Assembly (NCBI RefSeq): GCF_030548175.1
Contig: NZ_JAUORX010000001.1
Span: forward strand, 186,001 to 250,000
Length of the DNA stretch: 64,000 nucleotides
Source of the DNA: Cognatishimia sp. 1_MG-2023
Lineage (GTDB): Bacteria > Pseudomonadota > Alphaproteobacteria > Rhodobacterales > Rhodobacteraceae
Direction of reading: 5' to 3'
The position numbers and the translations under genes were made by a program. The notes beneath the pieces were generated by a model. The model searched no databases. It was not told where the DNA came from and worked only from the letters and a program-made list of their open reading frames with translations. Below are positions 50,924 through 61,691 of this stretch, in pieces. The first letter of the stretch is position 1. Every line of letters starts with the position of its first letter.

Positions 50924-52141
50924 ATGACACAAATGATTGATGACCGCAGAGCGCGACGCGCCGTATTCATATTAGTTCTGGCCCAGGCATTAATTGGCTC
51001 CCAGATGCCCATGATTTTTACGATTGGCGGATTGGCCGGGCAATCTCTAGCCTCCAACGCCTGCTTTGCAACACTACCCATTTCGATGATTGTTCTGGGA
51101 TCAATGTGCACAGCGACACCGATGTCGTCGATCATGCAAAAATTTGGTCGCCGGGTTGGCTTTTTGCTAGGCGCTCTGGCCGGAGCTCTTGGTGGTGCGA
51201 TTGGGGCCTATGGCCTGTACCTATCAAGCTTTCCTGTGTTCCTGTTGGGTAGTTTTATTACAGGCATCTATATGAGCGCACACGGTTTTTACCGCTTTGC
51301 CGCTGCTGATAGCGCATCAGAATCTTACCGCCCAAAAGCCATTTCATATGTCATGGCTGGCGGTCTTGCGGCGGCACTTATCGGTCCTCAAATTGTTAAA
51401 GTAACAGCGGATGCAATGGTCGTACCATTTATGGGCACATATGCTGCTGTGATCGCTTTGAATTTGATAGGCTCCATCCTTTTCCTGTTCCTTGACCTGC
51501 CGGTACCCGAAGCGCCAAGGGCTGACGCGCCACCAAGCCGCAGCCGTTGGGAACTGTTGACCACACCGCGTATCGCAGTTGCTGTCATTTGCGGAGCAGT
51601 CTCTTACGCGCTTATGAATTTAATGATGACATCCACCCCACTTGCGGTGGTCGGATGTGGATTTGCCAAGGAAAATGCGGCTGATGTGGTCAGTGCACAC
51701 GTGTTGGCGATGTTTGCCCCATCCTTTTTCACAGGTCACCTAATCGCCCGTTTTGGCGTGGAAAAAATTGTGGCTATCGGCATTGCAATCTTAGCCGCAG
51801 CGGGCGTGGTTGCCCTGCAAGGCGTCACACTCGGCAACTTCTTCGTCGCTTTGGTTTTGCTTGGTATCGGTTGGAACTTTGGCTTTATCGGCGCTACCGC
51901 AATGCTTGCAAGTGCTCATGAACCACACGAGCGCGGTAAGATGCAGGGTCTAAATGACCTCATCGTATTTGGTGGCGTAACAGTTGCATCCCTCGCTTCT
52001 GGCGGATTGATGAACTGTTCTGGGGGTTCACCTGTTGAAGGTTGGGTTGCAGTAAATCTGGCAATGGCTCCTTTCATTGTCCTCGCGGGTGGTGCGCTGA
52101 TCTGGTTGATCATGCGTCCACAACCAAAGCCTGCTGAATAA
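50924..52141 (+). CDS. Major facilitator superfamily transporter
   Basis: 405 residues, twelve hydrophobic helices. FGRRVGFLLGALAGALGG carries the loop 2-3 motif A. SYRPKAISYVMAGGLAAALIGP and the second-half AHEPHERGKMQGLNDLIVFGGV are typical of the YbjJ/YnfM-like family. Substrate unknown. Divergent to alkA; the gap holds TGAAC-N6-GTTCA at about 50853-50868, a possible operator. Confidence 0.9.
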   Translation: MTQMIDDRRARRAVFILVLAQALIGSQMPMIFTIGGLAGQSLASNACFATLPISMIVLGSMCTATPMSSIMQKFGRRVGFLLGALAGALGGAIGAYGLYLSSFPVFLLGSFITGIYMSAHGFYRFAAADSASESYRPKAISYVMAGGLAAALIGPQIVKVTADAMVVPFMGTYAAVIALNLIGSILFLFLDLPVPEAPRADAPPSRSRWELLTTPRIAVAVICGAVSYALMNLMMTSTPLAVVGCGFAKENAADVVSAHVLAMFAPSFFTGHLIARFGVEKIVAIGIAILAAAGVVALQGVTLGNFFVALVLLGIGWNFGFIGATAMLASAHEPHERGKMQGLNDLIVFGGVTVASLASGGLMNCSGGSPVEGWVAVNLAMAPFIVLAGGALIWLIMRPQPKPAE

Positions 52142-52190: not shown

Positions 52191-53285
52191 TTATGAGTAA
52201 GATTTGGTGACACCATCTCGAGCAGAATCTTGTGCCTGCATCCCCATTTTTACAGCGTGTAGGCCATCCATCAATGAGACATCAGGCACGCTTTTCCCAC
52301 GAACGACATCTAAGAATTTGACGTGCTGATAAAACGTCGATCCATTGTGATCTCCAGCATCCAAGATTGTGGGATCAACTGGAATCTCAACCATCTGTGG
52401 CCCTTTTGGAGAGCGAGGGCTAACAATAACCTGTGAAACCGGCGGCTCACCTAGATGGGTTGGCCAAAACCGGCCCGGCCCAGGTACCAACGCTTCGATT
52501 TTGCCGTTTGGTCCAACAGCACTGATCTCTTCCTGAAACTTACTGCCTTCGGCATACATGCAAAGCTCAAGCATAGCGCGTGCACCATTGGCGAAATCGA
52601 CAATCACATAGCCGCTATCCCAAATATCAGATGGCTCACCGCCATAGCTTTCATCCAAGTGGTTCACCTCTTGGCCTGCAGACGCCATGATCCGTACAGG
52701 ATCAGCCCCAATGATTAAGCGCATCAGGTCGAAGAAGTGACAGCACTTTTCAACAAGCGTTCCACCCGAGTTTTTATTGAAGCGGTTCCAATTGCCCACT
52801 TTCTCCAAGAAGGGAAAGCGATGCTCTCGAATGGTCAGCATTTTCACGCCACCAGTCGCTTTTTCGACCTCTTCCAAAAGTGTCTGAATGGGCGGCATAT
52901 ACCTGTATTCCATAGCAACCCAGATGGGTGCCGGATAACTCTCTTGGAATGCACGCAACATGTCTTCGTCCGCTGGGTCGGTGAACAGCGGTTTCTCCAT
53001 CAACAGAGGAAGTGGATTACGCGCAGCAATGATCTCTAGCTGTGGTACATGCATATGATTAGGGCTAACGACCAATAAGCAATCAAGGTCATCGCGATCC
53101 AATAACTCTTCGATCGTTGCACACATCTTTGCGTTTGGCTCAATGGCCTTGGCCGCATTCGCCATTATTTCATTCGGCTCAAAAATAGCCCCAACACGCG
53201 CGCCTTCAAGTAAGGCGATATTGCGCATATGTTCCTGCCCCATCATGCCGCAGCCGATGATACCATAGGTGATGTCACGGGTCAT
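52191..53285 (-). CDS. Gfo/Idh/MocA family NAD-binding protein; candidate sulfoquinovosidase
   Basis: 364 residues from the ATG at 53285 (GGGAG 6 nt upstream). N-terminal Rossmann fold YGIIGCGMMGQEHMRNIA, conserved EKP in LLMEKPLFTDP, and the C-terminal domain with KNSGGTLVEKCCHFFDLMRLI. Most members oxidise or reduce sugars; some are NAD-using glycosidases, including the sulfoquinovosidase family GH188. Standing beside SmoC/SmoB/SmoA-like genes with no GH31 enzyme in view, this protein is my candidate for releasing sulfoquinovose from its glyceride. That is inference. Confidence 0.85.
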   Translation of the reverse strand: MTRDITYGIIGCGMMGQEHMRNIALLEGARVGAIFEPNEIMANAAKAIEPNAKMCATIEELLDRDDLDCLLVVSPNHMHVPQLEIIAARNPLPLLMEKPLFTDPADEDMLRAFQESYPAPIWVAMEYRYMPPIQTLLEEVEKATGGVKMLTIREHRFPFLEKVGNWNRFNKNSGGTLVEKCCHFFDLMRLIIGADPVRIMASAGQEVNHLDESYGGEPSDIWDSGYVIVDFANGARAMLELCMYAEGSKFQEEISAVGPNGKIEALVPGPGRFWPTHLGEPPVSQVIVSPRSPKGPQMVEIPVDPTILDAGDHNGSTFYQHVKFLDVVRGKSVPDVSLMDGLHAVKMGMQAQDSARDGVTKSYS

Positions 53286-53296
53286 AGTATGCTCCC

Positions 53297-54001
53297 TCAT
53301 TTCAGGCGCTGAACGTACAGCGCCTGATCCGTGTCAAACCAAGTGCGAGAATACTCGATGGGCAGATCCTTATCGGCCCAACTAAAGCGTTCCACAAATC
53401 CAATAGGTGTTCCGGGCCGTTTCGTAAAAACCGAGGGAGCCCATATTGGCACCTCGCTAATCCCCACGCGGTCTTCAGCCCGTGTAATCCAAATGCCAAG
53501 TTGCTTCTGGTAATAGTGATAAAGCGAATCCGACAGCGTGTCTTTCGCGACCTGACCGACCGAATCGTCGAGCCAAATCTCCTCAACCGCGATAATTGTA
53601 TCATTCAGATAACGCAGTCGACGGATGCGCGCGCCGTGATCACTATAGCCAAAATCCGGAAGATCAGCTGGCTTGGCAACACGCTCTACCGTCAATAAAT
53701 CTGCGCGCGGCAACCCGCCGCCCTCGTGTAGTTCAAGGCGAAACATGCCGTAGATACTATTGCGAGTTTTGCCTGCCCGAATGTAATTTCCAGACCCTTG
53801 AATACGCTCTAAAAGCCCTTTTTCTGTGAGCGCACCAAGTGCTTTACGCAGCGTTCCAACAGATGTGTTCAACCCCATGGCCATCTCGCGTTCTGGCGGC
53901 AACCGTTCGCCATCAATCAAGCGGCCCGCGCCGATATCCCGGATGATAAGTTCTGCGATCTGCAGATAAACTGGCAGCGCGTTTCGATTACGATTTGTCA
54001 C
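53297..54001 (-). CDS. GntR family regulator, HutC/UTRA type
   Basis: 234 residues. Winged helix in residues 5-72 (DGERLPPEREMAMGLNTSVGTLRKALGALTEKGLL), then a UTRA ligand domain (LLTVERVAKPADLP, RRLRYLNDTIIAVEEIWLD, IGFVERFSWADKDLPIEYSRTWF split along it). UTRA domains bind sugars and related small molecules. It is divergent to the monooxygenase gene and 11 bp before the Gfo/Idh/MocA gene, so it is the likely local repressor. Confidence 0.92.
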   Translation of the reverse strand: MTNRNRNALPVYLQIAELIIRDIGAGRLIDGERLPPEREMAMGLNTSVGTLRKALGALTEKGLLERIQGSGNYIRAGKTRNSIYGMFRLELHEGGGLPRADLLTVERVAKPADLPDFGYSDHGARIRRLRYLNDTIIAVEEIWLDDSVGQVAKDTLSDSLYHYYQKQLGIWITRAEDRVGISEVPIWAPSVFTKRPGTPIGFVERFSWADKDLPIEYSRTWFDTDQALYVQRLK

Positions 54002-54045
54002 CTAATCCCCCGTGTCAGGATGCCGCGGAAAAAATTGATACACCA

Positions 54046-54059
54046 TTGATCCACATCAA
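54046..54059. promoter_or_regulatory. Perfect FNR-type box in the divergent promoter
   Basis: TTGAT-CCAC-ATCAA matches the FNR/FnrL consensus TTGAT-N4-ATCAA in all ten fixed bases. Its centre is 55 bp before the monooxygenase ATG and about 51 bp before the GntR start. Another TTGATxCAC copy lies 11 bp to the left (54035-54043), giving a direct repeat. Confidence 0.6.
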
Positions 54060-54107
54060 GGCGGATGTTACCCATCTAGCAAGTGAAGACAACCCATAGG
54101 TTTGAAA

Positions 54108-55265
54108 ATGACAGTCGTTCCGATCACATCCCCAGACCTGAAAGCCGCAGAAATCTCTTGGTTTTCAGCTCTCTGTTCAGACGACTATCGGTACCTAGGC
54201 GTACCTGATGGCGCATTACGGTCCTCTTGGGATCATTGTTCAGCTATTGTGAAAGAAGCAGAGGCGCAGGGTTTCAATAACATCCTATGCCCCTCCTCTT
54301 ACCAAGTTGGGCAAGACACACTTTCCTTTGTCGCAGGCTGCGCGCCCATAACAGAAAAAATCAATTTGCTAGCCGCCGTCCGCTGCGGAGAAATGCAACC
54401 AATCATGTTGGCCCGCACCATCGCCACGCTTGATCACATGCTGCAGGGTCGTCTGACGATTAATATCATCAGCTCCGACTTTCCCGGACAGAAGGAAGAG
54501 AGCAAATACCGCTATCAACGCTCTCGAGAAGTTGTTGAGATTCTAAAGCAAGCCTGGTCTCAAGACGAAATCAACTATGAAGGCGAAGTTTACAACTTCA
54601 AAGGCCTGACAACAGATCCAGTCAAACCCTATCAGCAAAATGGAGGACCGCTGCTGTATTTTGGAGGCTACTCTCCATCCGCATTAGAGCTTTGTGGCCA
54701 ACATTGTGACGTCTATCTGATGTGGCCTGAAAAAATCGAAGAGCTTAAGGGCCGTATGCAAGCGGTGCATTCGGTTGCTGAAAAATACGACCGCACTCTT
54801 GATTACGGCTTACGCGTCCACATGATCGTTCGCGACACCGAAAAAGAAGCGCAAGAATACGCAGATTACATCGTTTCAAAACTTGACAATGAGTATGGTC
54901 AAATGATCCGGGAACGCGCACTCGACAGCACGTCACTCGGTGTCAGCCACCAAGCCAAAAACCGTGAATTGGCTGACAAATATGGCTACATTGAACCAAA
55001 CCTTTGGACCGGCGTTGGTCGTGCGCGTTCTGGCTGCGGCGCTGCCTTGGTTGGATCAACCGACCAAGTGATGTCCAAAATTGAAGAATATCAAAAGATG
55101 GGCATTCGTGCTTTCATCTTCTCAGGTTACCCACACATCGACGAAGCCAAACACTTCGGCGCACGTATTTTACCCAATCTAAAAACCTGCTCGTTACCGC
55201 ATGAGTATGGTCGCGTGCCCGCATCAACACCCGCCACACCTCTTGGCAATGGAGTCCGCCGCTAA
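54108..55265 (+). CDS. smoC: FMNH2-dependent sulfoquinovose monooxygenase (SmoC-like)
   Basis: 385 residues, SsuD-type luciferase-like monooxygenase. Such enzymes use FMNH2 and oxygen to release sulfite from a sulfonate. From the ATG at 54108 the sulfonate and flavin residues fall at Trp206 (LMWPE), Arg236 and His238 (LRVHMIVRDT), Arg307 (GRARSG), Tyr341 and His343 (FSGYPHIDEA). These are the numbers I recall for Agrobacterium SmoC, which makes 6-oxo-glucose from sulfoquinovose. Start of a unit with the AKR and flavin reductase. An alkanesulfonate specificity cannot be excluded. Confidence 0.82.
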   Translation: MTVVPITSPDLKAAEISWFSALCSDDYRYLGVPDGALRSSWDHCSAIVKEAEAQGFNNILCPSSYQVGQDTLSFVAGCAPITEKINLLAAVRCGEMQPIMLARTIATLDHMLQGRLTINIISSDFPGQKEESKYRYQRSREVVEILKQAWSQDEINYEGEVYNFKGLTTDPVKPYQQNGGPLLYFGGYSPSALELCGQHCDVYLMWPEKIEELKGRMQAVHSVAEKYDRTLDYGLRVHMIVRDTEKEAQEYADYIVSKLDNEYGQMIRERALDSTSLGVSHQAKNRELADKYGYIEPNLWTGVGRARSGCGAALVGSTDQVMSKIEEYQKMGIRAFIFSGYPHIDEAKHFGARILPNLKTCSLPHEYGRVPASTPATPLGNGVRR

Positions 55266-56155
55266 TGGATCGTATTACCCTTTCCCCATCCCTTGAAATG
55301 AGCCGTATTGTATATGGCATGTGGCGCCTTGGGGACGACAGCGACACATCACCTTCACACGTCGAGGCAAAGATCCAAGCATGTTTGGACCAAGGCATTA
55401 CGACATTTGATCAAGCAGACATCTATGGCGAATACGTCGCAGAAGCTGTTCTTGGCGGCGCTTTAAAAGCAAACCCAGCACTGCGCAATCAAATGCAAAT
55501 TGTTACCAAATGTGACATCGTTGCGCCCTGTGGCCGCTATTCAGACGCCAAGGTGAAATACTACGACACTTCACGTGCGCATATCGAAAAATCAGTTGAT
55601 ATATCGCTAAAAGAGATGGCGATTGAGCACATTGATTTGCTCTTAATTCATCGCCCTGATCCTTTGATGGACCATAATGAAACCGGTGCTGCGTTGGATG
55701 ATTTGGTCGCATCAGGCAAAGTCGGCAACATTGGCGTGTCCAACTTCCGACCTTGGGATTGGGACCTACTGCAATCGGCGATGAAAACCAAACTGGTCAC
55801 AAACCAGATCGAAATCAGTCTTGCGGAAATTAGCCCATTCACAAACGGAGACCTAGCGTTCCATCAAAAGCAAGGCGACGCAATGATGGCTTGGTCTCCT
55901 CTGGGCGGCGGCAGCATCATTGGCAACGAAGGTAATTTAGGTATCGTTTTGGACGACATCGCAAACGCTTATGGTGTGGATCGTGGTGCCGTGGCAGTTG
56001 CATTCCTTTTGGCTCACCCTGCCAAAATTCTACCAGTTATGGGCACCAATAACTTGTCTCGTATCGCCACAATTTCCGATGCGTTGAAAGTGAAACTCGA
56101 TCGCGAAAACTGGTATCGCCTCTATGAGGCGGCACTCGGAAAAGAGGTGCCATGA
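55265..56155 (+). CDS. smoB: Aldo/keto reductase (SmoB/YdhF-like)
   Basis: 296 residues. AKR barrel with tetrad Asp49 and Tyr54 (FDQADIYGEY), Lys82 (VTKCDI) and His129 (LLLIHRPDPLMD). It resembles E. coli YdhF over its whole length and ends in ALGKEVP. In the SMO pathway SmoB reduces 6-oxo-glucose to glucose. It starts at the last base of smoC and overlaps the next gene, supporting that role. Confidence 0.82.
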   Translation: MDRITLSPSLEMSRIVYGMWRLGDDSDTSPSHVEAKIQACLDQGITTFDQADIYGEYVAEAVLGGALKANPALRNQMQIVTKCDIVAPCGRYSDAKVKYYDTSRAHIEKSVDISLKEMAIEHIDLLLIHRPDPLMDHNETGAALDDLVASGKVGNIGVSNFRPWDWDLLQSAMKTKLVTNQIEISLAEISPFTNGDLAFHQKQGDAMMAWSPLGGGSIIGNEGNLGIVLDDIANAYGVDRGAVAVAFLLAHPAKILPVMGTNNLSRIATISDALKVKLDRENWYRLYEAALGKEVP

Positions 56156-56670
56156 TGAATGCCCTAGCGCCCCAAATGCCTGTTGCATTTCAGCCAGACC
56201 CAGAAAATACGCGCCTGTTGCGAGATGCTTTTGGCCGGTTTGCGACAGGTATCACCGTCGTAACCGCAGACTCTGCGGATGGACCTGTTGGCATTACTGC
56301 CAATAGCTTCTCATCAGTGTCTTTGGAACCTGCAATGGTCTTATGGGCGCCGGGTAAAACATCACGCCGCTTTCCCTATTTCGAAAAAGCAGAGCACTAT
56401 GCAATCCATGTGCTTGCTGCCGATCAAACTGACCTTTGCACCGGATTTGCAAAAGATGTTTTTGCGCTAAATCACATTAAACACGACAGGAATGCCGAAG
56501 GTGTTCCAATCATCCCAAACTGCCTTGCGCGTTTTGAATGCAAACGCGTCGCGGGGTTTGACGGCGGCGACCACGTTATTGTTTTGGGAGAAGTCTTAAG
56601 GGCCGAAATGCGCGACGGTGATGCATTGGCTTTTTACGCCGGTAAGTACGGCCAATTCGCGCAACAATAA
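56155..56670 (+). CDS. smoA: Flavin reductase (SmoA-like)
   Basis: 171 residues from the ATG at 56155 (GAGG 7 nt upstream); an ATG at 56152 is also possible. Split-barrel FMN reductase: LRDAFGRFATGITVVTADS, GITANSFSSVSLEPAMVLW, HYAIHVLAADQ and the GGDHVIVLGEV C-terminal block. It would supply FMNH2 to the monooxygenase two genes upstream, which by itself cannot reduce flavin. Confidence 0.87.
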   Translation: MNALAPQMPVAFQPDPENTRLLRDAFGRFATGITVVTADSADGPVGITANSFSSVSLEPAMVLWAPGKTSRRFPYFEKAEHYAIHVLAADQTDLCTGFAKDVFALNHIKHDRNAEGVPIIPNCLARFECKRVAGFDGGDHVIVLGEVLRAEMRDGDALAFYAGKYGQFAQQ

Positions 56671-56725
56671 GCGCGAGGCTCGGATCGAGGAGGGTCCGGG
56701 CCACACAACAAGGGGGAGGATCCGC

Positions 56726-57316
56726 ATGGGCGGATTGTTGGCGTTAGTTACGCCTCTAAGTTTGGTAAACGCTGCGGTTCTCAAGGTAGGACGCGGTGTT
56801 GGATGCGTTGCGGTGGCCTTTATGGTAGCCGCTATTTTGATTCAGGTTTTCTTTCGCTACATTCTAAACAACGCCCTTCCCTGGCCCGACGAAGCTGCAC
56901 GATTTGGCATGCTTTGGATGACAGGCTTGATGGCTCCAACTGCATTTCGTCGCGGTGGCTTTGTTGCCATCGAAACTATTCCAGACATGCTGCCAAGCCG
57001 CGTTGGTGATACCCTCAGCTTGTTTTTACTTACAATTTCCTTGGCCGTTTTGTCGCTAGCAGTCGTTTTAGGTTACAGCGAAGTCACTGGGTTCGGAGGG
57101 CGTTTTGCGACAGCATCACTATATTTACCAACCTCTTTTGGCTTTGATGAATGGTTTCGGATTCCTCGTAGCTGGATGATGGCTTCCCTCTTTGTCGGTG
57201 TCGTTTTGTTGCTCTCAGTTAATGTAGAACTGATCTTACGCAGTCTAGTCGGCCTATGGGGGGGGCGCGACCGTTTACCTAGCATCACAGGCGCAGACAT
57301 TGGAGGAGCAGAATAA
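56726..57316 (+). CDS. TRAP transporter small permease (DctQ type)
   Basis: 196 residues from the ATG at 56726, with GGAGG 6 nt upstream; the frame upstream is not DctQ-like. Four membrane helices, with VFFRYILNNALPWPDEAARFGMLWMTGLMAPTAF the DctQ core. It pairs with the large permease that starts at its last base. Gene order DctQ-DctM-DctP directly follows smoA. Confidence 0.93.
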   Translation: MGGLLALVTPLSLVNAAVLKVGRGVGCVAVAFMVAAILIQVFFRYILNNALPWPDEAARFGMLWMTGLMAPTAFRRGGFVAIETIPDMLPSRVGDTLSLFLLTISLAVLSLAVVLGYSEVTGFGGRFATASLYLPTSFGFDEWFRIPRSWMMASLFVGVVLLLSVNVELILRSLVGLWGGRDRLPSITGADIGGAE

Positions 57317-58791
57317 TGTTGATCTGGTTCCTTCCTGTCTTTTTGATCTTTCTCATGATTGGCTTGCCAGTTTTCTTTGGCCTTCTCGCGGCCCCTGGCA
57401 TTTTGCTTTGGATGAACGGGCAAGAAAAAGACATCGCGCTTCTATATCGAAATGTTTACAATGGGATGGATAGCTTTCCTTTGATGGCGATCCCCTTTTT
57501 CATGTTAGCCGGAGAGCTTATGAACAAAGGTGGGATCACCATCCGCCTAGTCGAATTCTCCCAAGCCCTCATGGGCCATCTTCGTGGCGGTTTGGCCCAG
57601 GTAAACATTCTGTCTTCAATCCTATTCGCTGGCCTGTCCGGCTCAGCGGTTGCTGACACATCTGCACTAGGATCAATGTTAATCCCTGCGATGGAAAAAC
57701 AGGGCTACACGCGCAGGTTCGCAGCAGCCATCACCGCGGCAAGCTCTGTCATTGGCCCGATCATTCCACCTTCTGGCATCATGATCATCTACGCCTATGT
57801 AATGGGGGAAAGTGTTGCCGCGCTATTCCTCGCAGGTATCGTACCCGGTATCTTGGTTGGGCTTGGCCTAATGCTGATGGTCCGCGTGACTGCAGATCGT
57901 TACAACCTGCCCGCAGCAAAACGTGTCGTGTTGAAGAATATCGAACTCGGCCCTCTGGAATACTGGTTTTCATTTGCGCTAGTGCGCCTCAACCTAGGCC
58001 TGTTACTCGCGCAATTTGTCCCGCTCGGCGACGAGGCCACCGGCACAGCAAAATGGCTGGCGTATGGCGGCAGCATCCTAATCACGCATGGCCTTATGCT
58101 AGGGTTACGCAGAATGGTCAGCCATGATTTCCGCATGGTTTGCAAACGCGCGGTGGTTCCGTTGCAAACCCCGGTCCTAATCTTAGGCGGTATTCTGGCG
58201 GGTGTGTTTACCCCAACAGAGGCAGCAGCTGTCGCAGTGGCTTACGCCCTAATCGTAGCCTTTGGTATTCTGCGAACAATGAAGCTAAGTGATCTGCCCG
58301 ACGTCCTAACACGTGCAGGTATCACTTCGGCAGTCGTTCTGCTTTTGGTCGGCGCTGCCATGGCCTTTAAAACAGTTGTCAGCCTAAGCCATGCGCCAGA
58401 AATACTAGCGCAATTCATCCTAAGCCTAAGTGAAAACCCACTAATCCTGCTGTTCCTGATTAACTTGCTGCTTTTCGTGGTTGGCATGTTCTTGGATGCA
58501 GGTCCTGCGATCATCATCCTTGGCCCCATTCTTGGGCCAATTTTTACGGACTTGGGCGTAGACTCGATTCACTTTGCCATCATCATGAGTGTTAACTTGA
58601 CCGTTGGTCTAGCGACGCCACCGATGGGGCTTGTCCTATTTGTCGCCGCGGCAGTCTCACGAGAAAAAGTCGAGACGATTGCCAAAGCCATTCTGCCGTT
58701 CCTGGCTGTGGAGATCGCTGTGATTTTCTTAATCACATATGTCCCAGCCATTAGCATGACGATCCCGCGTTTGACGGGCTTCGCGAACTAA
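57316..58791 (+). CDS. TRAP transporter large permease (DctM type)
   Basis: 491 residues, about twelve hydrophobic segments. LLAAPGILLWMNGQEKD, LSGSAVADTSALGSMLIPAMEKQGY, SSVIGPIIPPSGIMIIYAYVMGESVAALFLAG and the GMFLDAGPAIIILGPI motif define DctM. It forms the sodium-driven channel of the TRAP system. A central insertion (about 190-260) makes it longer than the usual 425-430 residues. Confidence 0.95.
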   Translation: MLIWFLPVFLIFLMIGLPVFFGLLAAPGILLWMNGQEKDIALLYRNVYNGMDSFPLMAIPFFMLAGELMNKGGITIRLVEFSQALMGHLRGGLAQVNILSSILFAGLSGSAVADTSALGSMLIPAMEKQGYTRRFAAAITAASSVIGPIIPPSGIMIIYAYVMGESVAALFLAGIVPGILVGLGLMLMVRVTADRYNLPAAKRVVLKNIELGPLEYWFSFALVRLNLGLLLAQFVPLGDEATGTAKWLAYGGSILITHGLMLGLRRMVSHDFRMVCKRAVVPLQTPVLILGGILAGVFTPTEAAAVAVAYALIVAFGILRTMKLSDLPDVLTRAGITSAVVLLLVGAAMAFKTVVSLSHAPEILAQFILSLSENPLILLFLINLLLFVVGMFLDAGPAIIILGPILGPIFTDLGVDSIHFAIIMSVNLTVGLATPPMGLVLFVAAAVSREKVETIAKAILPFLAVEIAVIFLITYVPAISMTIPRLTGFAN

Positions 58792-58819
58792 AAATTGAGT
58801 AAACAGGGGAGGAAACACC

Positions 58820-59878
58820 ATGCTCAAGCAAACCCTCAAGTCACTGTCTGTCGCAGCGCTGCTTGCTACGTCCGCCGTGACCGCTACAGCTGCGGATTAC
58901 ACAATCCGTGCCACAGCAAACTCTAACGAAAACGACGAAGACTATGACGGCCTCGTAGTCTTCAAAAACTACGTCGAAGCGGCATCCAATGGCGCGATCG
59001 AAGTTGAACTGTTTATCGGTACACAGCTTTGCTCAAACGGCGCAGAGTGCCTGCAAGGCGTGGCTGAAGGCCAGGTTGATGTTTATATCTCAACTTCAGG
59101 CGGCGCATCCGGCATCTTTCCATATGTTCAGGTTCTGGACCTACCATATTTGATGGCCGACGACCGTATCGCGGAGCATGTTCTTTCTGGCGACTTTACA
59201 CGCACATTGCGCGACATGGCGCTTGAGGATTCAGGCAATGCGATCCGTCTGATGACTGTTGGCAACACCGGAGGTTGGCGTAACTTCGCGAACACAAAGC
59301 ACCGCGTCGCAAACCCAGCTGACATGGAAGGCCTGAAAATCCGTACGGTTGTTGCGGATCTTCCACAGGAATTGGTCAAAGCACTAGGCGCGTCCCCTAC
59401 TCCGATCCCATGGCCTGAACTGTTCACATCCTTCCAAACTGGCGTTGTTGAAGGGTCCAAAAACGGCATCACCGACATCATGGGTATGAAATTCCCAGAT
59501 GCGGGCCTGCAATATGTTACTCTGGATGGTCACGCCTACATGGGCGCGCTGTGGTGGATGAACAACGAAAAATTCATGGGTATGCCGGAAGACATGCGCC
59601 GTGTTGTTGTTGATGGTTTCTATGCTCTGCAACAAGCAACATTTGCTTCACCAAAGCGTAAGTCCATTAAAGCATACGAAGACTTCGTTGCTGGCGGTGG
59701 TGATCTATATGTTCCGACACCGGATCAAAAAGCCGCGTTCAAAGAATCCGCGTCTCCGGTTTACGACTGGTTCAAATCCAACGTTGCACGCGGCGATGAA
59801 ATATTCACAGCTTTGACCGACGCGGTTGCAGCAGCTGAAGCAGACGTAAACGCGTCTCGCGCCGCTGACCTGAACTAA
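58820..59878 (+). CDS. TRAP transporter substrate-binding protein (DctP type)
   Basis: 352 residues with signal peptide MLKQTLKSLSVAALLATSAV ending TATAAD. DctP fold with MEGLKIRTV holding the conserved Arg that grips the acid group, WPELFTSFQTGVVEGSKNGITDI and a Cys pair (LCSNGAEC). The periplasmic receptor. The gene context suggests a sulfonated sugar or its glyceride as ligand. Confidence 0.94.
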   Translation: MLKQTLKSLSVAALLATSAVTATAADYTIRATANSNENDEDYDGLVVFKNYVEAASNGAIEVELFIGTQLCSNGAECLQGVAEGQVDVYISTSGGASGIFPYVQVLDLPYLMADDRIAEHVLSGDFTRTLRDMALEDSGNAIRLMTVGNTGGWRNFANTKHRVANPADMEGLKIRTVVADLPQELVKALGASPTPIPWPELFTSFQTGVVEGSKNGITDIMGMKFPDAGLQYVTLDGHAYMGALWWMNNEKFMGMPEDMRRVVVDGFYALQQATFASPKRKSIKAYEDFVAGGGDLYVPTPDQKAAFKESASPVYDWFKSNVARGDEIFTALTDAVAAAEADVNASRAADLN

Positions 59879-59930: not shown

Positions 59931-60401
59931 TCACCGGAACGGATACATCCAGACCTTATAGTCCTCGACCAAAATATGCGCTTTTTCGATCTCTTCAGAC
60001 GTCATTTTCTTAACGACCTCTTCCAAGCTGATCGCGGCATCAGGATCACCGCCAATGGCCGACAAAGTATACCACATATAAGCACGTACAAGGTCCGGCG
60101 CGGGCATACCGCGGCCGATTTCATAGTACCAACCAATACCGCTTTGTGCACCCGGATGACCTTTCATCGAACTACGCAAATACCATTCGAAAGCGCGCTG
60201 ATCATCTTTCGGCATCCCCAACCCCATCGCATACATCACGCCAATCAGCTCTTCGGCATCAGCATTCCCAGAACGTGCCGCGGGCCAAAGCTCTTCGTAA
60301 GCTTGCTGAAAATTGCCCTCTTCCATAAGGTCACGAGCATGTTCAATTTCCGCCACAGCTGGCGTCGCCAAAAGGGCCAATCCAAAGGCTATTGCGCGCA
60401 T
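59931..60401 (-). CDS. Sel1-repeat periplasmic protein
   Basis: 156 residues with signal peptide MRAIAFGLALLATPAVAE. Two Sel1 (TPR-like) repeats follow: GNADAEELIGVMYAMGLGMPKDDQRAFEWYLRSS and its successor ending YMWYTLSAIGGDP. It probably mediates protein contacts. Its first 63 bp overlap the divergent start of the cytochrome peroxidase gene. Confidence 0.88.
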   Translation of the reverse strand: MRAIAFGLALLATPAVAEIEHARDLMEEGNFQQAYEELWPAARSGNADAEELIGVMYAMGLGMPKDDQRAFEWYLRSSMKGHPGAQSGIGWYYEIGRGMPAPDLVRAYMWYTLSAIGGDPDAAISLEEVVKKMTSEEIEKAHILVEDYKVWMYPFR

Positions 60402-61691
60402 CTTCTAGGTCTTTCCGTTTTGCTGGCCACACCCAGTTGGGCGAGCGATCTTCCATCCCCGTTAACCGATGCCGATTTCATTCAGTTTGACATGAAACAG
60501 GCAACCTTGGGACGTGATCTATTTTACGACAAAATCCTATCGGGCAACAGAAATATCAGCTGTGCTACCTGTCATCATCCTGACTTCGGTACAGGCGATG
60601 GGCTTTCACTTGGCATTGGCGAGGGCGGCGTTGGTTTAGGGACCGATCGCACGGCCGGTATTGGCGAAAGCCGTATAAAAAAACGCATTCCACGCAATGC
60701 TCCTCCGCTTTGGAACCTAGGAGCAAAAAGCCTGCACACAATATTTCATGATGGTCGCCTTTCCATTAGCGACGAATACGGAAACGGTTTCAACTCACCT
60801 GCCGAAGAATGGCTGCCAGTAGGTTTCAACTCCATTTTAGCGGCACAAGCCGTTTTTCCACTTGTTGCCCAATTTGAAATGGCCGGAAACCCAGGTGAAA
60901 ACCAAGTCGCTGGGGCTGCGCACGACCGCATAGATGCCCCATGGCCAATAATTGCGAAAGCTACCCGAACTAAAGGTGACTATGGCCCAAGGTTTGTTGA
61001 GGCATTTGATCATATCGACGACCCTGAACAGGTCTCGATCGTCGAAATAGCAAATGCACTTGCGGCTTTCATGGCTATCGAATGGAAAAGCATCGACAGT
61101 CCATTTGACCAGTACTTAGCAGGCACTACAGAAGCATTAAATGCCTCACAAAAGCGAGGAATGGATTTGTTCTATGGTAAAGCCCAATGCAGCACCTGTC
61201 ATTCAGGCCCCTTGATGAGCGATCAAAAATTCCATGCACTCGGCCTACCTCCCTTTGGTCCCGGACGGACACGCCGTTTTGACCCAATGGTGCGGGATGT
61301 CGGTCGAATGGGGGAAAGCGACCGCATCGAGGATGCCTACCGTTTTCGTACCCCCATGCTGCGCAACGTCGCACTGACTGCGCCTTACGGTCACAACGGG
61401 GCTTATCCAACACTAGAAGGCATCGTTCGCCACCATCTTGCCCCGAAAGCCGCGCTAAAAAATTGGCAACCCACAGATGCCCAGCTACCAAAAGCGCCTT
61501 GGTTAGAACCGATTGATTTTGTTGTGTGGTCTGATCGCCTTGAAATGGCGCGCCAGATTGAAAAAAATGACATGACACCAATCACGCTAACCGATGATGA
61601 AGTGCAAAACTTAGTGGCGTTTCTAAAGTCATTGACCGGTAGCAGCCTCGAAAATCCAGTTTTCGGTGTACCAGAAGATTTCGAACCTTAA
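60339..61691 (+). CDS. Dihaem cytochrome c peroxidase / MauG family
   Basis: 450 residues from the ATG at 60339. The n-region is basic (HSWRRQKGQSKGY) and the h-region is LLGLSVLLATPSWAS, a plausible signal peptide. Haem sites CATCHH (Cys75-His79) and CSTCHS, with conserved Trp/His regions between. Periplasmic electron transfer or peroxide reduction; MauG-like oxidation of a partner is possible. The start is antisense inside the Sel1 gene, so the two promoters must lie inside each other. Confidence 0.85.
   Translation: MFNFRHSWRRQKGQSKGYCAHLLGLSVLLATPSWASDLPSPLTDADFIQFDMKQATLGRDLFYDKILSGNRNISCATCHHPDFGTGDGLSLGIGEGGVGLGTDRTAGIGESRIKKRIPRNAPPLWNLGAKSLHTIFHDGRLSISDEYGNGFNSPAEEWLPVGFNSILAAQAVFPLVAQFEMAGNPGENQVAGAAHDRIDAPWPIIAKATRTKGDYGPRFVEAFDHIDDPEQVSIVEIANALAAFMAIEWKSIDSPFDQYLAGTTEALNASQKRGMDLFYGKAQCSTCHSGPLMSDQKFHALGLPPFGPGRTRRFDPMVRDVGRMGESDRIEDAYRFRTPMLRNVALTAPYGHNGAYPTLEGIVRHHLAPKAALKNWQPTDAQLPKAPWLEPIDFVVWSDRLEMARQIEKNDMTPITLTDDEVQNLVAFLKSLTGSSLENPVFGVPEDFEP

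Follow-up and report, generated by a model that had tools for sequence, protein, structure and literature searches.

A sulfo-SMO-type gene cluster in Cognatishimia with TRAP transporter genes as candidate sulfoquinovose carriers

Sulfoquinovose (SQ) is a sulfosugar of plants and algae, and a gene cluster that appears to serve its oxidation raises the question of how the sugar enters the cell. The cluster lies in a 64,000-nucleotide stretch of Cognatishimia sp. 1_MG-2023 (Rhodobacteraceae; contig NZ_JAUORX010000001.1, positions 186,001 to 250,000), hereafter the window, in which positions are counted from the first base. A preliminary description, made from the letters of the window, had proposed that this strain desulfonates SQ by the sulfoquinovose monooxygenase (SMO) route and imports it through a tripartite ATP-independent periplasmic (TRAP) transporter. 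We conclude that the TRAP-fed SQ desulfonation cluster is real, complete and common in its family. Judged from sequence comparison, it very probably represents a complete sulfo-SMO cluster for SQ utilisation, in which the TRAP genes form an SQ uptake module that is independent of the pathway they feed. The features on which this reading depends are as follows.

52191-53285, minus strand: sqgA-like gene, predicted NAD-dependent sulfoquinovosidase of glycoside hydrolase family 188 (GH188), Gfo/Idh/MocA superfamily (GFO_IDH_MocA; match to SqgA structures)
53297-54001, minus strand: GntR/UTRA regulator (Pfam domains GntR and UTRA), putative repressor
54034-54059, plus strand: probable operator ATTGATACACCATTGATCCACATCAA (conserved core pattern in the 106-bp divergent gap)
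54108-55265, plus strand: smoC, predicted sulfoquinovose monooxygenase dependent on reduced flavin mononucleotide (FMNH2) (Bac_luciferase; similarity to 7olf and 7oh2; tree)
55265-56155, plus strand: smoB, aldo/keto reductase predicted to convert 6-dehydroglucose to glucose (best solved match 7bby)
56152-56670, plus strand: flavin reductase in the putative SmoA role (Flavin_Reduct domain; overlaps smoB)
56726-57316, plus strand: dctQ, TRAP small permease (PF04290)
57316-58791, plus strand: dctM, TRAP large permease (PF06808, TIGR00786)
58820-59878, plus strand: dctP, TRAP substrate-binding protein, proposed ligand sulfoquinovose and/or sulfoquinovosyl glycerol (PF03480; distribution)

Translation and Pfam searches confirmed the eight named genes at the coordinates of the preliminary description, whose gene content and positions were thereby borne out. 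The SmoC/SmoB, SmoB/flavin reductase and DctQ/DctM junctions overlap by 1-4 bases, the flavin reductase gene and dctQ are spaced by 55 bp, and the regulator gene and smoC diverge from a gap of 106 bp. DctP, DctQ and DctM are encoded as separate proteins, as indicated by Pfam. These TRAP genes stand in the cluster instead of an ATP-binding cassette (ABC) importer of the SmoE-H type; SmoF was not looked for elsewhere in the genome.

We compared the monooxygenase with all solved structures. It scored 706 bits with 7olf and 7oh2 (76.0% and 76.8% identical, respectively), whereas SsuD and 7jv3 reached 180-190 bits. The database titles of 7olf and 7oh2 are methanesulfonate sulfonatase and alkanesulfonate monooxygenase; we take both to be the SmoC structures from the SMO papers. 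When SmoC and SsuD proteins were placed in a 30-row tree, the product of the 54108 gene grouped with 7olf and 7oh2 with 100/100 support, and the SsuD-type rows and 7jv3 fell outside. Further, the window's monooxygenase remained under the NCBIfam cut-off for SsuD (244 versus 518 bits). The preliminary description had also pointed to six residues, W206, R236, H238, R307, Y341 and H343, and we located all of them in the window's SmoC at these numbers. However, 29 of the 30 tree rows had all six, among them 7jv3 and both rows annotated as SsuD; only a Bacteroidota protein deviated. Residues that are kept in SsuD-type enzymes mark the SsuD superfamily and say nothing on sugar specificity; thus the positions were correct, their diagnostic value for SmoC did not hold, and the six-residue match was rejected as proof of SQ specificity. 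The aldo/keto reductase encoded in the same unit scored 418 bits with its best solved match, 7bby, which is presumably SmoB, and 201 bits with YdhF. The flavin reductase partner was recognised at the family level (Flavin_Reduct). The orthology of SmoC and SmoB, together with the SmoC tree, supports the prediction that the cluster encodes oxidative SQ desulfonation of the SMO type, in agreement with the preliminary description.

The Gfo/Idh/MocA protein scored 516 bits with 8zn9 and 355 bits with 8qc2 and 8qc3, followed by inositol dehydrogenases at 51 bits. 8QC2 is given as the GH188 structure in PMC11465081. In ArSqgA, according to PMC10755693, the sulfonate site consists of R166, L170 and K172 and the catalytic residues are K107, Y136, E189, H193 and H321. 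All eight have identical counterparts in the window's protein: K98, Y127, R156, L160, K162, E179, H183 and H313 correspond to ArSqgA K107, Y136, R166, L170, K172, E189, H193 and H321, as read off the printed pairwise alignment. The gene at 52191-53285 is thus a predicted GH188 sulfoquinovosidase, a role that the preliminary description had missed while placing the gene correctly. No GH31 match was detected in the window's genome (99.6% complete); a GH31 enzyme was therefore rejected as the alternative sulfoquinovosidase, and the GH188 protein is the sole candidate from these two families in the genome. GH188 enzymes require NAD+ (PMC10755693), and because of this requirement the window's enzyme is expected to be cytosolic. 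The glycoside itself should therefore be imported.

We next considered how regularly the TRAP genes accompany these enzymes. In a search of 84,980 species, each represented by a single genome, we read the best 80 of at least 579 confirmed SmoC relatives with their loci (numbered L; genomes are numbered G). DctP was present in 60 of these 80 loci, and all 60 kept the order GH188-GntR<>SmoC-SmoB-reductase-DctQMP and the strands of the eight genes, which shows that the cluster is not a chance arrangement. ABC genes occupied the TRAP position in two loci (Yoonia maritima and Loktanella), the last gene in the row belonging to Cons_hypoth698. The queries used found neither DctP nor ABC genes in the other 18 of the best 80 loci; four of the 18 showed DctQ or DctM and no DctP (L011, L018, L068 and L071), and two contained only a distant TRAP, with a DctP identity of 22-24% (L066 and L082).

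A survey of 394 genomes of the family, nearly one per genus, gave a similar picture. With thresholds of E <=1e-100 for SmoC and >=65% identity for DctP (three weaker DctP matches, of 37-50% identity, were excluded), SmoC was found in 165 genomes and DctP in 142; both occurred in 110, SmoC only in 55, DctP only in 32 and neither in 197. This corresponds to an odds ratio of 12 and a Fisher p of 2e-27 over the 394 genomes, with shared ancestry ignored. The two genes lay <=10 kb apart in 93 of the 100 pairs with listed positions (of 110), and the remaining seven pairs were on separate contigs. TRAP import, which the preliminary description had presented as this strain's own solution, is thus strongly supported by the genomics and is no peculiarity of one strain, since 110 of the 165 SmoC-positive genomes have DctP. 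The match was closer still among 72,556 plasmid records: SmoC was found at >=60% identity in 11 and DctP at >=60% in 10, all of them within the 11. In the eleventh, Marinovum pMaD9, the SMO genes are followed by those of an ABC sugar transporter. A Rhizobium plasmid (Rhizobiaceae) had the complete unit, TRAP genes included, and so did Ruegeria TM1040, Salipiger, Paracoccus, Roseivivax and Roseicitreum; Qingshengfaniella had the regulator, SmoC and TRAP genes only. As a separate observation, more distant DctP relatives occurred in Pacificitalea (L093, 8890-9939, 52%) and Photobacterium (L094, 45%), in records without a SmoC match at >=60%.

The most informative loci were those in which DctP occurs without SmoC. 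We inspected the genes around DctP in each of the 32 such family genomes and called a locus sulfoglycolytic, of the sulfo-Embden-Meyerhof-Parnas (sulfo-EMP) type, when it contained at least two of a PfkB kinase, a DeoC/LacD-type aldolase and a Fucose_iso_C isomerase. This was the case in 22 of the 32 loci, and GH188 was encoded in 22 of 22, beside the same DctQMP. One of them, L111, was scanned gene by gene: it also encodes an aldose epimerase and an aldehyde dehydrogenase, which round off the set, and its regulator is of the DeoR type. The best solved match of its kinase was the sulfofructose kinase 7ag6. For its aldolase the best match was 8tnf, a DUF2090 protein, ahead of tagatose-bisphosphate aldolases, while sulfofructose phosphate (SFP) aldolase matched only weakly; its aldehyde dehydrogenase matched succinate-semialdehyde dehydrogenases, and its isomerase had no match among solved structures. 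The sulfo-EMP label thus rests on the L111 kinase, GH188 and the Pfam families, and the other 21 loci were assigned by homology to L111. The review PMC12890257 describes kinase-aldolase routes for SQ, among them hybrid sulfo-EMP sets in Proteobacteria.

DctP in the 22 EMP-type clusters was 72-88% identical to that of the window. GH188 was 63-88% identical to the window's in TRAP-SMO loci and 43-54% in the 16 EMP-type loci compared. In a DctP tree of 67 rows, built by a quick method with 33 SMO rows (one from the window, 25 from the 60 loci and 7 from plasmid loci) and all 22 EMP rows, the SMO and EMP labels interleaved, with 10 changes when EMP was set against all others and 8 when it was set against SMO and SMO-like rows. 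At least four EMP-label changes were forced by well-supported branches. The SMO and EMP routes have the glycosidase as their sole common enzyme, and they have a common substrate. One TRAP transporter that occurs with two chemistries joined only by SQ argues strongly, on genomic grounds, for the import of SQ or sulfoquinovosyl glycerol (SQGro), and it is the best support for the prediction that the TRAP genes carry SQ or its glycoside.

The other 10 DctP-only loci were heterogeneous. Five contained SmoB, and in one of these (L144) the contig stops within SmoC. The other four (L099, L105, L140 and L146) keep SmoB and the TRAP genes, with the flavin reductase in three of four. No SmoC was found in these four genomes at E 1e-20 with the query that was positive in 165 genomes, and the open reading frame lists of the loci showed no obvious SmoC replacement; either decay or a replaced oxygenase may account for this. 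Separately, a gene of the PhyH type (phytanoyl-CoA dioxygenase family) stood beside the same TRAP genes and MauG-type genes in L102, L104, L115, L136 and L139, and its product is possibly another sulfosugar oxygenase.

Several observations weigh against the proposed SQ uptake module. Window-type DctP was missing from 55 of the 165 SmoC-positive genomes, including G308 of the window's own genus, and near relatives vary: L005 has the TRAP genes, and L006 (Cognatishimia activa, also without GH188) and L007 (whose coordinates are those of G308) carry SmoC but lack the TRAP. The TRAP transporter is thus not essential to the chemistry. Of the 55 SmoC-only loci, 20 were read. Two types of ABC binding protein were queried; one or the other was present in four of the 20, and neither of them nor DctP was found in the remaining 16. 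Five of the 32 DctP-only loci fit neither pathway (L100, L107, L136, L139 and L145, the last on a 3.6-kb contig), and for seven of the 32 the sequence read, which in some cases stops at a contig end, contained no GH188. The neglect of shared ancestry in the co-occurrence test is a further such point. In the DctP tree, 25 of the 63 inner branches were weak, and the pathway labels were more clustered than in 500 of 500 shuffles. Labels that are interleaved yet clustered suggest that exchange of the TRAP genes between pathways was occasional, not free. Finally, AlphaFold gave a poor model of DctP (mean predicted local distance difference test score 48; 14-row alignment).

A first alternative is that the chemistry is of the SMO type and the TRAP genes import another anion, for example a C3 sulfonate (such as dihydroxypropanesulfonate or sulfolactate) or a sugar acid, with SQ entering by an ABC or other carrier encoded elsewhere. 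TRAP carriers for small sulfonates are known, and the isethionate DctP 8t9t is among the matches of the window's DctP (93 bits). The best match among solved structures reached 121 bits, so that this DctP family has no close solved relative, and the 55 SmoC genomes mentioned above do without it. However, sulfo-SMO makes no C3 sulfonate and sulfo-EMP makes and exports them (PMC12890257), and both carry the same DctP family; what the two cluster types have in common is SQ and, via GH188, its glycoside. We therefore regard another cargo as unlikely.

Two further explanations appear far less probable still. The monooxygenase might be an ordinary SsuD-type alkanesulfonate enzyme in a cluster that scavenges sulfur from linear sulfonates; it does belong to the same superfamily, and the six cited residues are common to SsuD-type enzymes. 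The bit scores, the NCBIfam cut-off and the fully supported split in the tree all speak against SsuD, as does the presence of SmoB and GH188 as partners, and we rejected this assignment as highly improbable. The other candidate is the neighbouring major facilitator superfamily (MFS) carrier (50924-52141), which adjoins the cluster and also stands beside it in the TRAP-less L006 and L007. A homologue (E <=1e-80) was present in 35 of 36 family genomes sampled, including the SmoC-negative G001, G003, G004 and G005, and in 3 of 24 others, and it lay near SMO genes in three of the 80 loci only (L005, L006 and L007). A carrier found in nearly all family genomes sampled, independent of SmoC, is probably a chance neighbour; a dedicated role in SQ import is hardly credible and was rejected.

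As a TRAP-fed SMO unit for SQ, the cluster would operate as follows. DctP would bind an anionic sulfosugar in the periplasm, most likely SQGro besides free SQ, and DctQM would drive its entry by an ion gradient. In the cytosol, the NAD-dependent GH188 enzyme would split SQGro into SQ and glycerol. By homology, the flavin reductase would supply FMNH2 to SmoC, which with O2 would cleave the C-S bond to give sulfite and 6-dehydroglucose; SmoB would reduce 6-dehydroglucose to glucose, which the one glucokinase of the genome could phosphorylate. A gene of the putative sulfate exporter family follows the TRAP or ABC genes in L085, L086, L090, L151 and L067 (14751-15731, Cons_hypoth698), and such a protein is a possible route of sulfite exit. 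The window, the only part of the genome searched for it, contained no Cons_hypoth698 exporter.

In each of the 60 TRAP-SMO loci, the GntR/UTRA gene and smoC point away from each other. The divergent gap contained a conserved block, ATTGATACACNATTGATNNACATCAA, whose core pattern was present in just one copy in 79 of the 80 loci and was also found in the ABC-type clusters L067, L080 and L088; the commonest 8-mer was found in 75 of 81 divergent gaps. In the window's genome, the full pattern had one exact copy, in this gap, and one other site with three mismatches. The pattern was found in only 10 of the 20 SmoC-only loci read and was absent from all of the 32 DctP-only loci, even from the GntR-bearing L099 and L107. 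Both counts weigh against an operator, and the second weighs against the wider reading as well. Its lack despite a GntR homologue suggests that the site or the regulator differs there. The block at 54034-54059 is a probable GntR operator, through which the regulator would repress both divergent units until an SQ-derived ligand binds.

Two further genes lie downstream of dctP.

59931-60401, minus strand: Sel1-repeat protein whose N-terminus looks signal-like by eye (gene adjacent to and divergent from the di-heme gene)
60342-61691, plus strand: di-heme protein of the MauG/cytochrome-c-peroxidase type with two CxxCH motifs (start codon uncertain)

Relatives of the di-heme protein at E <=1e-90 occurred in 223 of the 394 family genomes. 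Close relatives (E <=1.4e-148, a cut-off chosen after viewing the match list; >=53% identity) occurred in 107 genomes, 106 of which had window-type DctP; in 87 of these 106 the two genes were <=15 kb apart, and in 19 they were not. The presence of the di-heme gene downstream of dctP is accordingly not a random one. The di-heme gene was present in 50 of the 60 TRAP-SMO loci, in none of the other 20 of the 80 loci and in 24 of the 32 DctP-only loci. Four of the 20 SmoC-only loci read had copies of 48-55% identity directly after the flavin reductase gene. The Sel1-repeat gene was divergent from the di-heme gene in 28 of the 50 TRAP-SMO loci and in 23 of the 24 DctP-only loci. MauG relatives oxidise partner proteins, and by analogy one possibility is that the di-heme and Sel1 proteins form an enzyme-partner pair; another is that the di-heme protein serves ordinary peroxide removal. 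We tentatively raise a broader idea, itself rather doubtful: the TRAP transporter, a periplasmic MauG-type di-heme enzyme and its divergently encoded Sel1 partner might constitute a pathway-independent sulfoquinovoside uptake module in marine alphaproteobacteria, and might serve either sulfo-SMO or sulfo-EMP. The di-heme enzyme would then assist uptake from the periplasm, for example by oxidising a partner protein or the glycerol end of SQGro, and SQ glycosides would come in by a kind of TRAP route of which our searches turned up no earlier description.

If the TRAP transporter carries SQ and SQGro, dctP would allow SQ consumers of both pathways to be recognised from sequence, and the cargo range of TRAP transporters would grow to a hexose sulfonate and its glycoside. 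Uptake genes would then have been swapped between unrelated catabolic routes for one substrate. We found no report of SQ uptake by TRAP in the open literature, and no mention of a MauG-type di-heme companion in the accessible parts of the open SQ-pathway literature; the roseobacter SQ studies of Liu et al. 2023 and Ma et al. 2025 were beyond reach, and priority is thus uncertain. With this limit, the TRAP transporter as an SQ carrier common to two pathways and the di-heme companion are apparently new. The SMO chemistry and the GH188 step are already known, and the combination of GH188 with SMO genes in roseobacters has been published (PMC10755693).

Comparison with known systems places the cluster as follows. 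Like the sulfo-SMO (sulfo-ASMO) systems of Agrobacterium tumefaciens and Novosphingobium (SmoA/B/C; SquD/SsuE/SquF), it has SmoC, SmoB and a flavin reductase together. Agrobacterium uses the ABC importer SmoE-H and a GH31 sulfoquinovosidase, whereas the window has TRAP, GH188 and GntR/UTRA genes. The products of the sulfo-SMO pathway are glucose and sulfite (PMC12890257). The window's cluster belongs to the marine Roseobacter sulfo-SMO clusters in which, according to Kaur et al. 2023 (PMC10755693), GH188 is near-universal; the main text of that paper contains neither "TRAP" nor "transporter". Sulfo-EMP and sulfo-EMP2 clusters with GH188 share this enzyme with the window, and in 22 family genomes clusters of the sulfo-EMP type have the same DctQMP; they cleave a C-C bond by kinase and aldolase, in contrast to the C-S cleavage proposed for the window, and the one scanned (L111) has a DeoR-type instead of a GntR regulator. 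The isethionate TRAP (8t9t) shares the DctP fold family and has an anionic sulfonate as cargo, as proposed for the window, but its similarity to the window's DctP is at the superfamily level, and the cargo proposed here is a hexose sulfonate or its glycoside.

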